A stretch of DNA of 64,000 bases, from contig NZ_BLJQ01000006.1 in the NCBI RefSeq assembly GCF_014132155.1, positions 64,501 through 128,500 of the forward strand. The letters run 5' to 3'. The stretch's first letter is position 1; each line of letters opens with the position of its first letter. This document shows positions 29,238 through 35,828 of the stretch, one piece after another. This DNA comes from Gluconobacter sp. Gdi (GTDB taxonomy: Bacteria; Pseudomonadota; Alphaproteobacteria; Acetobacterales; Acetobacteraceae). The translations under genes were made by a program, and so were the position numbers. The notes below the pieces were generated by a model. It was not told the origin of the DNA. It made no database searches and saw only the letters and a program-made list of their open reading frames with translations.

Positions 29238-29322
29238 CGATCACGGGCCGCCGTAAACTGTCACAAAATGACCCTTTTCAGTGGGGGCGACGAACGGCTC
29301 GTTTCAGTGCTATGCAGTTTGT

Positions 29323-31941
29323 ATGACGCGCCGTTCCATTCGCTCCCGTAATCCGCAGGACCCCAGGGCCAGTGTGCCCCGCGGGCCCCGTTTCCGCCGT
29401 TTCCGTCAGTCTCTTGCCATCGTCGCTGGTGTCGGGCTGGTCGGTGTTGCGGGTGCGGGTATCTTGGGTTGGACCACCTACGCCAAACTCGTGGCTGATC
29501 TGCCAAGTGTGGACAGCCTGAGGGCCTATCAGCCCCCGACCGTCAGTCGCATCTATGCATCTGATGATCGCCTGATGGCTCAACTTGCCAACGAGCGGCG
29601 TATTTTCGTTCCGCTTGAAGCGATTCCGGATCGGGTAAAGCGCGCCTTCCTCGCAACGGAAGATCACAATTTCTACACCCATGGTGGTGTTGATGTGATG
29701 GCCATTGCCCGTGCAGGCGTAACGGACGTTTTTGCCCGCCATGGGCGCCGTGCTGTCGGTGCGTCCACCATTACGCAGCAGGTTGCGCGTGGGATGCTGC
29801 TTAACAGCAATGCCCGCACGCTCGATCGTAAAATCAAGGAAGCCCTGCTTGCCGTCAAAATGGAGCAGGTGCTGTCCAAGGACAAGATTCTTGAGATCTA
29901 TCTGAACTGGGCGGATCTGGGGAACGGCTCTTTTGGTGTCGCCGCCGCGGCCCAGACCTATTTCAACAAGCCTCTCGACCAGCTGAATGATGCAGAAGCC
30001 GCGTCACTGGCGGCCCTTCCGAAGTCCCCTACACATTACAATCCGTTCCTTCATCCTGACGCAGCCTTGATGCGCCGGAATCTTGTTCTGGATCTGATGG
30101 CCGATAACGGCGTCATTTCCCGCGAGCAGGCTCAGGAAGACAAGAAGGAGCCACTGGTCCCGCAGAAAAAACAGCGGTTTGGACCTTTGCCGGATTCAGA
30201 ATGGTTCGGGGCCGAGGTCCGGCGTCAGCTCATCAGCTTGTATGGTCAGGATCGCGCTCTTCAAGGCGGCCTTGAAGTTCATACCAGTCTGGATCAGCCC
30301 CTTCAGGTATCAGCGACGAAGCTGCTGCATGAAGGTCTGATGGATTACGATCGGAGCCGCGGAGGTTGGCGTGGCCCGGTCATCCATCTTGATGGCATTG
30401 ACGCAGAAGGCTGGGAAGAAAGTCTCGATAAGGTCTCCGGTCCAGCTGGAATGCTAAGGGAGTGGCGTCTGGGCGTCATTCTTCCCGGTGGAACTCACGT
30501 GGGCTGGAATGAGGAAGGCCAAGCGAAGACTGGTCCTCTTCTGGCAACAGACATCGCATGGGCACGTCGGATGCACCCGCTTCGTGCCGGGGATGTCATC
30601 ATGATTGAACCGCAGGAAAGTGGCTCCGTTGCCCTGCGTCAGATTCCGCAGGTCGAAGGCGCTGTCGTGACGATGGATGTCCATACAGGCCGTGTTCTGG
30701 CGATGGTGGGTGGATGGTCGTTTCACGAAAGTCAGTTCAACCGCGCAACGCAGGCTCTGCGTCAGCCGGGCTCTTCCTTCAAGCCGTTTGTGTATCTGGC
30801 GGCCATGGAACAGGGTATTTCTCCGTCCGAGAAGTTTGATGATTCCCCTGTCTCTTACGGCGACTGGCATCCCAAGAACTACGAGCACGATAACTGGGGT
30901 CCAACCACCCTGCATGATGCCCTGCGTGAAAGCCGGAACCTCGTGACGATCCGGGTGGCCGCGCATCTGGGTATGAAGGCGGTCGCAGACACAGCCATCA
31001 AGGCCGGCCTTGTAGATGATATGCCGCATGTGCTGCCCGCAGCACTTGGTGCCGTTGAAACGACCGTTCTCAAGGAAGCCGCGGCCTATGCAACGATTGC
31101 GAACGGCGGCCATGTTGTTTCTCCCACCCTCATGGATGACATTCAGGATCGCCTTGGCAATATCGTCTGGCGTGCACCTGGCTTGGCATTAGGGACCACC
31201 TTGCAGGCGCCACCTGCGCCTCCAACTGCTGATCCGTCATCTCCAACAATTACACCGGCATCGACCGAAGCTGCTGGGGCGCCAGTGCAGCCATCGGCGC
31301 CGGTTCCCGGAAGTATCTCTGTTCCCTCCATTGCAGATAGTCGTCCTGTTCTCGCCAGCGAGGCCAGTTCCTATCAGATCGTGGCCATGCTGAAGGATGT
31401 CATCGCTCATGGAACGGGCCGCATGGCAGGGGTAGGGATTGACCGTCCCATCGCGGGGAAGACCGGCACCAGTCAGGATTTCCATGATGCCTGGTTTGCT
31501 GGCTTTTCGCCGGATATCGTCACGATCGTCTGGGTCGGTTTCGATACGCCGCAAACGCTCGGGCGGAACGCTGATGGTGCCCGCATTGCCGGCCCCATCT
31601 GGAACAAGATCATGAAGGTGGCGCTCGCCAACCGGCCGAAGCTGGATTTCCGTGTTCCGGCCGATATCACGCTGGCGTCCTACAACACCGGCCGTATCAC
31701 TGCGACTGACGGATTCAAGGCTGATCAGGTTCCGGGTGCGTCGGTGGCTCTGCATGGCTTCGGTGCTGGTACGGAAGCCCTGACAGCGGCAGATACCGGG
31801 GCAGATGCCGTTATTTCGGATTCCGAGAGCGATATGACAGACACCAGCGCGCCGAGTGTTGGGTCTTCTCCGAATGCCAAGCCTCAGGCCCAGAAACCTG
31901 CGGCATCGGATGGTGACATTGGTGTAGGCGGCCTGTACTGA
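29323..31941 (+). CDS. mrcA: Bifunctional penicillin-binding protein 1A
   Basis: Class A PBP that polymerises and cross-links peptidoglycan. The 872-residue protein has a basic cytoplasmic head, one membrane segment (LAIVAGVGLVGVAGAGILG), a GT51 glycosyltransferase domain (LATEDHNFYTHGGVD with the catalytic Glu, GASTITQQVARGM, KIKEALLAVKME), and a transpeptidase with SSFK in RQPGSSFKPF, the second motif SRN in RESRNLVT, and KTGT in IAGKTGTSQDFHDAWF. A Pro/Ala/Ser-rich insertion of about 50 residues lies inside the transpeptidase domain before KTGT. The ATG at 29323 is preferred over a GTG at 29281. prfB follows after 40 bases, a common arrangement. Confidence 0.95.
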   Translation: MTRRSIRSRNPQDPRASVPRGPRFRRFRQSLAIVAGVGLVGVAGAGILGWTTYAKLVADLPSVDSLRAYQPPTVSRIYASDDRLMAQLANERRIFVPLEAIPDRVKRAFLATEDHNFYTHGGVDVMAIARAGVTDVFARHGRRAVGASTITQQVARGMLLNSNARTLDRKIKEALLAVKMEQVLSKDKILEIYLNWADLGNGSFGVAAAAQTYFNKPLDQLNDAEAASLAALPKSPTHYNPFLHPDAALMRRNLVLDLMADNGVISREQAQEDKKEPLVPQKKQRFGPLPDSEWFGAEVRRQLISLYGQDRALQGGLEVHTSLDQPLQVSATKLLHEGLMDYDRSRGGWRGPVIHLDGIDAEGWEESLDKVSGPAGMLREWRLGVILPGGTHVGWNEEGQAKTGPLLATDIAWARRMHPLRAGDVIMIEPQESGSVALRQIPQVEGAVVTMDVHTGRVLAMVGGWSFHESQFNRATQALRQPGSSFKPFVYLAAMEQGISPSEKFDDSPVSYGDWHPKNYEHDNWGPTTLHDALRESRNLVTIRVAAHLGMKAVADTAIKAGLVDDMPHVLPAALGAVETTVLKEAAAYATIANGGHVVSPTLMDDIQDRLGNIVWRAPGLALGTTLQAPPAPPTADPSSPTITPASTEAAGAPVQPSAPVPGSISVPSIADSRPVLASEASSYQIVAMLKDVIAHGTGRMAGVGIDRPIAGKTGTSQDFHDAWFAGFSPDIVTIVWVGFDTPQTLGRNADGARIAGPIWNKIMKVALANRPKLDFRVPADITLASYNTGRITATDGFKADQVPGASVALHGFGAGTEALTAADTGADAVISDSESDMTDTSAPSVGSSPNAKPQAQKPAASDGDIGVGGLY

Positions 31942-31981
31942 GGGCAGCCAAACCACCTTATATATAAGTGGAGTATTTATA

Positions 31982-33113
31982 ATGTCGGCTGAGACCGAAG
32001 CCCTCTCCGAACAGATCAAGCAGTCGGTGGCACTGCTGAGGAGGCATCTTTAACTGGGATGTCGCCACAACACGCCTCGCGGAACTGAACCACCGCGCGG
32101 AAGACCCAGACCTTTGGAATGATTCTGACGCTGCCCAGAAGCTGATGCGCGAGCGAACCATGCTCGCCAATCAGATCGAGGGCGTTGAACAGATCGAACA
32201 GGACGTTGAAGGCACGCTGGAACTTGTCGAGCTCGCAGAAATGGAGAACGACACGGATCTGGTGCAGGAAGCCATCGCGACGTTGCGTGGGCTGGCAGCC
32301 GACGTGCACAAGCGCGAAATCGAAAGCCTGTTGTCCGGCGAAGCTGACAGCAATGACTGCTACGTTGAAGTGAATGCCGGTGCAGGTGGAACGGAAGCCC
32401 AGGATTGGGCCGAGATGATCCTGCGCATGTACACCCGCTGGGCAGAACAGCACGGCTACAAGGTGACCTTCATTGAAAGCAGTGAAGGTGAGCAGGCGGG
32501 CATCAAGTCTGCCACCATCCAGATCAGTGGCCTCAACGCTTATGGCTGGATGAAAACGGAAGCTGGCGTGCATCGTCTCGTCCGCATCTCGCCCTTCGAT
32601 GCCGCTGCCCGTCGTCAAACGTCCTTCGCGTCTGTCTGGGTGTATCCGGTGGTCGATGATTCCATTGAAGTGGAGATCAACGATTCGGATCTGCGTGTGG
32701 ATACTTTCCGTGCTTCAGGCGCAGGCGGTCAGCACGTTAACAAGACCGATTCGGCCATTCGTATTACCCATATCCCGACCGGCATCGTTGTTGCCTGTCA
32801 GACGGACCGCTCACAGCACCGCAACCGTGCCAAGGCGATGGAAATGCTGAAGGCCCGGATGTACGAGGCCGAGCTTCAGAAGCGGGAAGCCGCCGCCGCC
32901 CAGACGGAAGCCGCCAAAACGGATATCGGATGGGGCCATCAGATCCGCTCTTACGTCCTGGCACCCTATCAGTTGGTCAAGGATCTGCGGACAGGCGTGG
33001 AAAAGGGAAATCCGGACGCTGTTCTGGACGGCGCCCTGGACGACTTCATGTCGGCTTCTCTTGCCCAGCGCGTCGGAGCAACGCGATCCGAAGCCAGCGC
33101 CTCCGCTCAGTAA
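31982..33113 (+). CDS. prfB: Peptide chain release factor 2 with +1 programmed frameshift at UAA
   Basis: RF2 releases peptides at UGA and UAA. Translation starts at the ATG 31982 (GGAG eight bases upstream); 23 codons later the frame meets TAA at 32051-32053. The bases AGG AGG CAT CTT TAA C reproduce the bacterial RF2 frameshift site: internal Shine-Dalgarno AGGAGG (32039-32044), then the slippery CTT, then a stop. Shifting +1 (skipping T32051) continues NWDVATTRLAELN and the remaining frame to 33113, giving 376 residues in all, the normal RF2 length. The SPF stop-codon motif (RISPFDAAARR) and GGQ (GAGGQHVNKTDSAIR) are intact. The stop is UAA rather than the usual UGA. Confidence 0.93.
32039..32054 (+). 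promoter_or_regulatory. RF2 recoding site (AGGAGG, CTT TAA C)
   Basis: An internal Shine-Dalgarno-like AGGAGG is followed three bases later by CTT and the in-frame stop TAA with C after it, the same geometry as the E. coli prfB shift site. When RF2 is scarce, the ribosome pauses at the stop and slips +1 into the main frame. The UAA here can also be read by RF1. Confidence 0.8.
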
Positions 33114-33510: not shown

Positions 33511-34176
33511 ATGAAGAGCTACGCCGCACAGCAGCGCAAGCCGACGGACTATATTGTCGCGATCGTCGTGGCCGTGCTGGCTATGGGCGCGGTAATCTAT
33601 GCGCTCATGAGCGGTGCTGTGGGCAAACTCGTCCACGAAAAGCCGCCCATCAAGACGGAAGTGATCAAGGAGCAGCCTAAGCCGCCTCCGCCACCACCAC
33701 CTCCGCCGCCGCCGCAGATGGAACAGCCGCCGCCGCCGTATATTCCGCCGCCGAAGATCAGTGTTCCGCCGCCACCCAAGGCGATCCAGCGGGTCACACA
33801 CGCCAAGCCGCCGCATCCGGTTCCGCCGAGCCCGACGCCTGCACCTGAGCCTGTTCCGGCTCCTCCGCAGGGTCCGCCAGCTCCGGCAGTGCCTGATCAC
33901 ACGGCTGGCGCGTCTCCGATCAACGGCGCCAAGCCGGAGTATCCGGAGGAAGCCCAGGAAGAGAACCGTGAAGGTAAAGTTACGGCTTCCTGCGACATTC
34001 TTCCGAACGGTCACACGGCAAACTGCGCGATTGTCAGCTCCACCGGTGGTCACGAGTTTGTGGAAAGTGCGCTCGACTTCCTTCGTCGAGCCCGGTACCA
34101 GCCCGCCGTCGTTAACGGCGCTCCGGTTACCGAGCATCACCACATTCTGCACGTTGACTTCACGATGGGCGACTAA
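33511..34176 (+). CDS. tonB: TonB energy transducer
   Basis: Couples the inner-membrane proton gradient through ExbB/ExbD to outer-membrane TonB-dependent receptors. The 221-residue protein has one N-terminal membrane segment (YIVAIVVAVLAMGAVIYALM), a long proline-rich periplasmic spacer starting with a run of eleven prolines, and a C-terminal TonB domain (NGAKPEYPEEAQEENREGKV then ALDFLRRARYQPAVVNGAPV). Ribosome-binding GAAGG lies eight bases before the ATG. It heads the tonB-exbB-exbD-exbD-TPR cluster. No receptor gene is adjacent, so it probably serves several receptors. Confidence 0.95.
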   Translation: MKSYAAQQRKPTDYIVAIVVAVLAMGAVIYALMSGAVGKLVHEKPPIKTEVIKEQPKPPPPPPPPPPPQMEQPPPPYIPPPKISVPPPPKAIQRVTHAKPPHPVPPSPTPAPEPVPAPPQGPPAPAVPDHTAGASPINGAKPEYPEEAQEENREGKVTASCDILPNGHTANCAIVSSTGGHEFVESALDFLRRARYQPAVVNGAPVTEHHHILHVDFTMGD

Positions 34177-34309
34177 GTGTCCGTCAGCCAGTAGTCCAAT
34201 AAGATTGCCTCTTCGGATCAGGTGGTTCGGAGAGGTTCAAGGAAAAGGGCCGGTCCCCATATGGCCGGCACCCCAGACAGCTCCTAAAACGGGCATCTCT
34301 AACGAGGAT

Positions 34310-35398
34310 ATGGAGTTCATGACCAGACTGTTCCGCCTTCCTGCTCTTGACGTTCCGACGAAGGCGCGCGCCGTCCGGGCCAGCGCCATGGCTCTGACGC
34401 TGGCCCTGGCTTCGGGTGCAATCGCACCGGCCGTCGCTTTCGCTCAGCCTGCACCGGCTGATCAGAGTGCTCCGGCTGCCGCTCCGGCCGACCCGTCGGC
34501 AGTGCCGCCGGCTCCGTCCTCGGACCCGTCTGCTGCACCTGCTGCTTCTGCACCGAATGATGCTGGCGCTCCGGCACCTGCCGCCGGTGATGCAGCTGCT
34601 CCTGCTGACCAGACGCCTGCTGCTGCTGCCACCCCGGGTGAAAGCGCAACGGCCGCTCCTGAAGCTCCGGCTCCGCAGGGCAACCCGTACGGTCTTGGCG
34701 CTCTGTGGGCCAATGGTGACGTGATCGCTCGTGGCGTTCTGATCATCATGGTTATCATGTCCGCTGGTACCTGGATCATCATGGTCATGAAGTTCCTGGA
34801 GCAGGGCCGTGTGTTCGCTGCTTCCAAGGAAGCTTCCCGTGAATTCTGGACGAAGCCGTCCGTTCAGGCTGGCGCTGCGTCCCTGAAGGCTTCTTCTCCG
34901 TTCCGTTACATCGCTGAAACCGGTATTGTTGCTGCAGAGCACCACGAAGGTTCCATGCGTGATGCGATCGACCTGCACTCCTGGACGGAAATGTCCATCG
35001 GGCGCTCCGTTGACACCATCAACACGCGTCTTCAGGGCGGCCTCGCGTTCCTCGGTACGGTGGGTTCCACCTCTCCGTTCGTCGGTCTGTTCGGCACGGT
35101 TTGGGGTATTTACCACGCTCTGACCGCCATCGGCATTGCAGGTCAGGCGTCCATCGACAAGGTTGCTGGTCCGGTGGGTGAATCCCTCATCATGACGGCA
35201 ATTGGTCTTGCAACCGCTGTTCCGGCCGTTCTGGGTTACAACCTGCTCGTTCGCCGTAACAAGGGCGCTATGGATCGCGTTCGCAACTTCGCTGCAGACG
35301 TTCAGTCTGTCCTGATCGGTGGCTTCCGTCACGGCGTGTCTCCGGAAGACGGCGGCATGTCAGCTCCGACCACCATCACCACCAGCCAGCGGGTCTGA
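34310..35398 (+). CDS. exbB: ExbB proton channel with periplasmic Ala/Pro-rich extension
   Basis: A MotA/TolQ/ExbB-family proton channel protein. The 362-residue product begins with a signal-peptide-like stretch (LTLALASGAIAPAVAFAQ), then about 90 residues of Ala/Pro/Asp-rich low complexity, then the ExbB core with three membrane segments and the conserved GTVGSTSPFVGLFGTVWGIYHAL and LIMTAIGLATAVPAVLGYNLL. The extension makes it about 120 residues longer than E. coli ExbB; similar extended ExbB proteins occur in other alphaproteobacteria. The open frame extends upstream to 33761 inside tonB but is a shadow. ATG at 34319 is an alternative start. Confidence 0.92.
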   Translation: MEFMTRLFRLPALDVPTKARAVRASAMALTLALASGAIAPAVAFAQPAPADQSAPAAAPADPSAVPPAPSSDPSAAPAASAPNDAGAPAPAAGDAAAPADQTPAAAATPGESATAAPEAPAPQGNPYGLGALWANGDVIARGVLIIMVIMSAGTWIIMVMKFLEQGRVFAASKEASREFWTKPSVQAGAASLKASSPFRYIAETGIVAAEHHEGSMRDAIDLHSWTEMSIGRSVDTINTRLQGGLAFLGTVGSTSPFVGLFGTVWGIYHALTAIGIAGQASIDKVAGPVGESLIMTAIGLATAVPAVLGYNLLVRRNKGAMDRVRNFAADVQSVLIGGFRHGVSPEDGGMSAPTTITTSQRV

Positions 35399-35402
35399 TA
35401 CT

Positions 35403-35828
35403 ATGGGAATGAACGTCGGAGGAGGCGGCGGTGACGACGAGGTGGTGTCGGCAATCAACACCACTCCCCTCGTCGACGTCATGCTGGTGCTGCTGATCAT
35501 CTTCTTGATCACCATCCCAGTCGCCACGCATACTGTGAAGCTGAAGCTGCCGGTTGATGCAAATCAGCCGACCCAGACTAAGCCGAATAATGTTGTTCTG
35601 GCAGTGACTGCGAATGGCCAGGTTTTCTGGAACACCACACCGGTCCCAACGCATCAGGATCTGCTGAACCGCCTTGTAGAGGTGGCTAAGCAGAAGCCTC
35701 AGCCGCAGGTCCAGATCCGTGGTGACGGTGCTGCCAAGTATCTGGCAGTTGGCCAGGTGGTCGCTACAGCTCAGGAAGCTGGTATCGCTCACGTGGACTT
35801 CATCACCGAGCAGCCCCACTCGAACTGA
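35403..35828 (+). CDS. exbD: ExbD biopolymer transport protein (first copy)
   Basis: A 141-residue TonB-system stator subunit with one membrane helix. Residues 17 to 45 show INTTPLVDVMLVLLIIFLI, including the membrane Asp needed for proton coupling, and the periplasmic domain ends VDFITEQ. It starts four bases after exbB. A second exbD follows at 35902; the two differ, so they may form a heteromeric stator or serve different TonB complexes. Confidence 0.94.
   Translation: MGMNVGGGGGDDEVVSAINTTPLVDVMLVLLIIFLITIPVATHTVKLKLPVDANQPTQTKPNNVVLAVTANGQVFWNTTPVPTHQDLLNRLVEVAKQKPQPQVQIRGDGAAKYLAVGQVVATAQEAGIAHVDFITEQPHSN

Follow-up and report, generated by a model that had tools for sequence, protein, structure and literature searches.

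A prfB programmed frameshift site with UAA as its zero-frame stop in Gluconobacter, and the grouping of this variant among acetic acid bacteria

The prfB locus

The window, i.e. the whole 64,000-nucleotide stretch of Gluconobacter DNA analysed here, carries prfB on its forward strand. A likely Shine-Dalgarno sequence, GGAG (31970..31973), lies 8 nt 5' of the start ATG (31982-31984), and the frame opened by this ATG is read for 23 codons before it ends at TAA (31982..32053). The main RF2 frame of 353 aa runs from AAC at 32052 to the TAA at 33111-33113 (32052..33113) and is closed 5' of the shift by a TGA (32037..32039). The two frames meet in AGGAGG-CAT-CTT-TAA-C at 32039-32054, an intact 16-nt cassette with the frames correctly placed. 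It consists of the Shine-Dalgarno-like stimulator AGGAGG (32039..32044), the spacer codon CAT, which would occupy the E site (32045..32047), and the slippery CTT (32048-32050) followed by TAA (32051-32053) and C (32054). A +1 shift over 32048..32054 gives CTT AAC, i.e. Leu-Asn. The earlier note, made from the sequence alone, had claimed that the start frame stops after 23 codons, which translation of both frames confirmed; its description of AGGAGG, a three-base spacer and CTT as fitting the classical site, with UAA as the stop, also agrees with the sequence.

Thus, an early in-frame stop is followed by the remainder of RF2 in the +1 frame, the Shine-Dalgarno-like element lies three bases 5' of the slippery codon, and CTTT is present together with the C after the stop. 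All elements of the classical cassette are there except for the identity of the stop, which is UAA, readable by RF2, instead of the RF2-only UGA that a strict definition would demand; neither PMC12421855 nor PMC3711429 makes UGA a requirement. Judged by its sequence, this is a genuine +1 frameshift site with UAA, of a kind known for prfB.

That the gene encodes RF2 is clear from the profile TIGR00020 of NCBIfam, to which the locus aligns at 516 bits over model positions 12-352 of 353 (cut-off 370 bits); 352 aa of the main frame alone score 513 bits, and the best PDB matches of the main-frame product are RF2. The main frame contains an in-frame ATG, and RF2 could in principle be made without shifting from an internal start, for example ATG 32145, which would give 322 aa. 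However, this product would lack 31 main-frame residues as well as the 23-aa leader, both of which are similar in the relatives read (the leader in all 26 loci of the genus, L032-L057), and in this genome and most relatives' rows the main frame is open for 357 aa and starts only at the stop of the cassette. We therefore reject an internal start as the only source of RF2 and consider it very improbable.

The neighbours of prfB lie at 29281-31941 and 33511-35828 of the window. Upstream is an ORF of 886 aa, which we take to be penicillin-binding protein 1A, and the downstream ORFs of 221, 545 and 169 aa are presumably tonB, exbB and exbD; the 221-aa ORF contains a long proline run. An Rfam scan of the window at gathering scores returned three tRNAs and nothing else.

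The shifted site among relatives

The shifted site is found in all 26 genomes searched from the genus, with identical frames at the loci L032-L057. It reads CTTTAAC in 11 of them, the window's genome included, and CTTTGAC in the other 15. The earlier note had proposed to ask whether relatives conserve CTT TAA C and keep its frames; the 11 genomes show exactly this, and the remaining 15 are shifted as well, at CTT TGA C. The nearest named genome among eight loci compared is that of Gluconobacter cerinus NBRC 3267, 96.1% identical over 8 kb, and the window probably comes from a Gluconobacter near this species.

At the family level, 338 of 397 genomes match the general pattern GGNGGNATCTTTRRCTNNGA, which allows TGA, TAA or TAG as the stop; the frames were read in part of these 338. 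Among the roughly 150 matches listed only TGA and TAA occur, and AGGAGG with a CAU spacer is usual. TAA is present in 19 of the 397 genomes and is confined to three of 102 genera: g1, the genus of the window (8 of 14 sampled), g31 (9 of 13) and g30 (2 of 2). Matching sequences (L107 with L062, and L034 with L088) lead us to identify g31 with Acetobacter and to assign part of g1 to Neokomagataea. Scanning named genomes with AGGNGGNATCTTTAACTGGGA gave CTTTAAC at 49 loci, namely 25 in Acetobacter, 5 in Gluconobacter, 3 in Neokomagataea, 5 in Bartonella and 11 in others, which include Sneathiella, Agrobacterium vitis, Breoghania and several MAGs. Each of the 49 falls in prfB, as shown by reading for 46 and by matches to RF2 for L058, L069 and L075.

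In a class-wide sample of 289 genomes the site has TAA in 5 and TGA in 142, counted with patterns that require TGGGA after the site, so that sites without TGGGA escape. The earlier statement that many alphaproteobacteria lack the shift thus holds for the class, and about half of the class genomes are reported to have it in the available part of PMC12421855, but not for this family, where the shift is the rule.

The earlier note had also raised the alternative that a T was added to the TTT run by sequencing error; with such an error, or one of assembly, the gene would in reality be a single frame. The genome is a draft of 178 contigs and T runs are error-prone in sequencing. Against this, a shift is needed in all ten further genus genomes with CTTTAAC and in all 15 with CTTTGAC, the 49 loci in named genomes carry CTTTAAC, and the shift-free relatives that were read use other codons (e.g. 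CGC CGC CAT CTG GAC) rather than the same site minus one T. The site in the relatives refutes the error, and its probability is negligible.

Within the site, the AGG AGG codons are kept in 19/20 and 20/20 of the UAA-type sequences. Leaving out M and W, 238 codons are amino-acid invariant in these 20 sequences and only five of them are also invariant as codons, four of which are in or next to the site (21, 23, 24 and 26). In 19 UGA-type sequences the corresponding figure is 30 of 267, including codons 18-24, 26 and 27. The search pattern fixes parts of the site codons, yet it missed no genome of g1 or g31 (13/13 in g31).

In one g31 genome of about 1.7 Mb, on a long branch and of low G+C (L135 / G232), the UAA site is kept while the upstream context is changed (TTCGGAGGTATCTTTAAC) and the main-frame stop usually found just before the Shine-Dalgarno element is missing. 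A draft genome of the family, G128, has two prfB matches with the shift site, on contigs C248 and C249, which may reflect a mixed bin or a duplication.

Grouping and origin of the UAA stop

UAA at the prfB shift site has been published, and the window site is a rare known variant with an ordinary mechanism. As far as the accessible parts of the papers go, the consensus YTT_TRA_C has been given for the motif (PMC3711429), while the internal stop is named UGA in PMC5009743 and PMC13245932. UAA was counted in 1.4% of 8,164 motif-bearing genomes, in multiple phyla and retained among strains of a species, and it was termed poorly represented, randomly distributed (title of figure S1) and not broadly fixed in clades, according to the sections of PMC12421855 at hand. 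The UAA-bearing motifs described there and in PMC3711429 are, from what these texts give, the same variant as in the window. A literature search for programmed frameshifting of prfB in Acetobacter found none.

A tree was built from the prfB DNA of 66 rows (22 TAA, 44 TGA), with the slippery codon and the stop's own codon excluded. On this single-gene tree the identity of the stop has to change no more than twice, and the tree is neutral between gain and loss of UAA; bootstrap trees require 2-3 changes and shuffled assignments 18.6 on average. A branch with support 95/99 parts nine Acetobacter-type and two g30 TAA rows from the other 55. In the genus, 14 TGA rows are joined at 100/100 and 10 of the 11 TAA rows at 95/97, while the fork joining all 11 TAA rows is supported only at 53/35. 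As the branch of the two g30 rows is long, these may represent a third origin of UAA.

By the fewest-changes count no UGA row is found inside the 11 genus-type or the nine Acetobacter-type UAA rows. Within these two groups the tree lengths, in changes per column, come to 1.74 and 1.86. All 108 four-fold sites of the first group and 94 of the 95 in the second have changed at least once, while the base that makes the stop TAA is unchanged.

On these sequences, UAA is grouped in the acetic acid bacteria and not scattered. The conclusion of PMC12421855, in which UAA motifs are randomly distributed and not broadly fixed in clades, is at odds with the present sample of acetic acid bacteria, in which a tree with two changes groups the UAA rows. 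Because UAA is rare in the family, we infer that it arose by G-to-A changes (Asp24 to Asn) at least twice in these bacteria and was then kept. This grouping, together with the tie between the stop swap and a residue change, is what the present analysis adds.

Coupling between the stop and residue 24

After the shift, the second and third bases of the stop are read again, and the identity of the stop therefore sets the next residue: UGA-C becomes GAC (Asp), UAA-C becomes AAC (Asn) and UAG-C would become AGC (Ser). A change from UGA to UAA thus forces Asp to Asn at residue 24 of RF2, a point absent from the earlier note. No discussion of this coupling was found in the portions available of PMC12421855, PMC3711429, PMC5009743 and PMC13245932.

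What the protein tolerates at this place can be seen from 70 shift-free alphaproteobacterial RF2s, where the equivalent residue, placed by ungapped extension of the tblastn match, is Asp in 53, Gly in 8, Asn in 7, Glu in 2 and Ser in none. Many of these proteins have similar residues at the junction and the protein is the same, but the gene is a single frame, without CTTT at the place and with other codons for the same residues. The set is not random. It comprises 20 genomes, picked by a long open frame or among the loci returned by the search (Asp 18, Asn 2), and, from two more families, 50 loci (Asp 35, Gly 8, Asn 5, Glu 2), taken from 60 that were the best 30 of 77 matches in each family; loci found to have a shift were dropped, and L121 and L138, from one genome, were counted once. 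These counts suggest that protein constraint alone would favour UGA over UAA over UAG, and judged from the sequences the preference UGA > UAA > UAG may partly be protein constraint rather than regulation. The clade pattern qualifies the published inference that stop identity reflects regulation alone, since each stop also fixes the next amino acid.

The swap could be driven by mutation and have little regulatory meaning: A+T drift would have turned TGA into TAA, Asn24 would have been tolerated, and a protein constraint Asp > Asn > Ser would be the main reason why UAA is rare and UAG is lacking. We regard this as a strong contender, with a probability a little short of even. The residue counts agree with it, and base composition points the same way. 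Mean G+C at the site loci of the genus is 0.553 for UAA (n=11) and 0.612 for UGA (n=15), for the Acetobacter-type loci it is 0.559 (n=9, UAA) against 0.603 (n=4), and both g30 UAA loci are near 0.47. Further, when a residue had to occur in at least 70% of each of the two UAA groups and in no more than 25% of the UGA rows, residue 24 alone tracked UAA in both groups, and no compensating substitution in RF2 was found beyond it. However, the loci L025, L016 and L017 keep TGA at a G+C of 0.468, 0.518 and 0.531, so drift alone is not deciding, and as the sole cause it is rejected. In addition, Asn makes up 7 of 60 Asp or Asn residues in the shift-free RF2s but 5 of 147 at shifted sites in the class-wide sample (p 0.042 by Fisher's test). 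Without the window's genome the values are 7/60 and 4/146 (p 0.016). The test is weak in both forms, as it ignores kinship and the sample is a chosen one. UAA may thus be rarer than the tolerance of Asn would predict.

Two loci of family f109, L171 and L176, have a shift-free prfB in which the residue following the junction's position is Asn, like that of UAA-type RF2s. Both could stem from an ancestor with the UAA site that lost the shift.

Possible regulation by release factors

The window site is very probably the +1 programmed frameshift that is standard for bacterial prfB, except that the zero frame ends in UAA. It shares with E. coli prfB (AGGGGG-UAU-CUU-UGA-C) the gene, the early position, an internal Shine-Dalgarno sequence three bases before CUU, the CUU itself, the C after the stop and the +1 direction, and differs in the stop (UAA, not UGA), the Shine-Dalgarno sequence (AGGAGG), the spacer (CAU) and the first shifted residue (Asn, not Asp). 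The anatomy of the site, its conservation and its grouping among relatives are directly observed; by analogy with E. coli, slipping would occur here and the supply of release factors would govern it. In E. coli, altering any element of the cassette, the identity of the stop included, lowers shifting, as stated in the part of PMC12421855 that could be consulted.

In such a mechanism ribosomes would reach CUU with UAA in the A site, and slow release would let the peptidyl-tRNA slip from CUU to UUU. The slip would be helped by pairing of AGGAGG, three bases upstream, with 16S rRNA and by the weak stop context C, after which RF2 would be completed in the +1 frame. The feedback should still respond to RF2. 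It may be damped by RF1, as UAA is read by both factors. The RF1 gene is present in the genome, and RF1 could therefore terminate at the prfB UAA and damp the RF2 feedback. From the stop codon, it is a fair inference that autoregulation would respond to RF1 plus RF2, as the earlier note had proposed, and joint sensing is possible. The residue four places before GGQ in RF2 is Ala throughout the 64 rows compared; we take this to be the position that varies in K-12, with Ala the more active form; if so, this RF2 should read UAA well.

A stronger reading is that a prfB with UAA measures the total of RF1 and RF2, and that this wiring was kept by selection in the UAA groups. The presence of RF1 is in its favour, and so is the lack of any UGA row within either UAA group while nearly all four-fold sites have changed there. 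In addition, UAA ends 46 of 150 ORFs in this genome against 22 of 143 in a UGA-type sister, the other stops being UGA in 92 and 109 and UAG in 12 and 12 (200 kb per genome, ORFs of 150 aa or more). On the other hand, the base behind UAA determines Asn24 as well, and many codons of the UAA rows are amino-acid invariant (238 of 376, leaving M and W aside). The retention of UAA thus shows constraint but not its cause. The accessible text of PMC12421855 also cites evidence that RF2 is the main reader of UAA in most taxa, and UAA sites are argued there to still respond to RF2. We therefore consider a selected joint sensor unlikely.

It can further be speculated that in Gluconobacter/Neokomagataea and in Acetobacter the swap turned the RF2 feedback into a sensor of the overall capacity for termination at UAA (RF1 plus RF2), under selection since the ancestors of the groups. 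The printed view of UAA as poorly tolerated and not fixed in clades would then fail in these genera, and an amino-acid constraint on residue 24 would in part explain why UAA and UAG are nearly absent elsewhere. This proposal as a whole we hold to be even more doubtful. The related species, some with UAA and others with UGA as their natural autoregulatory stop, offer a ready test of whether RF1 takes part in the RF2 loop.
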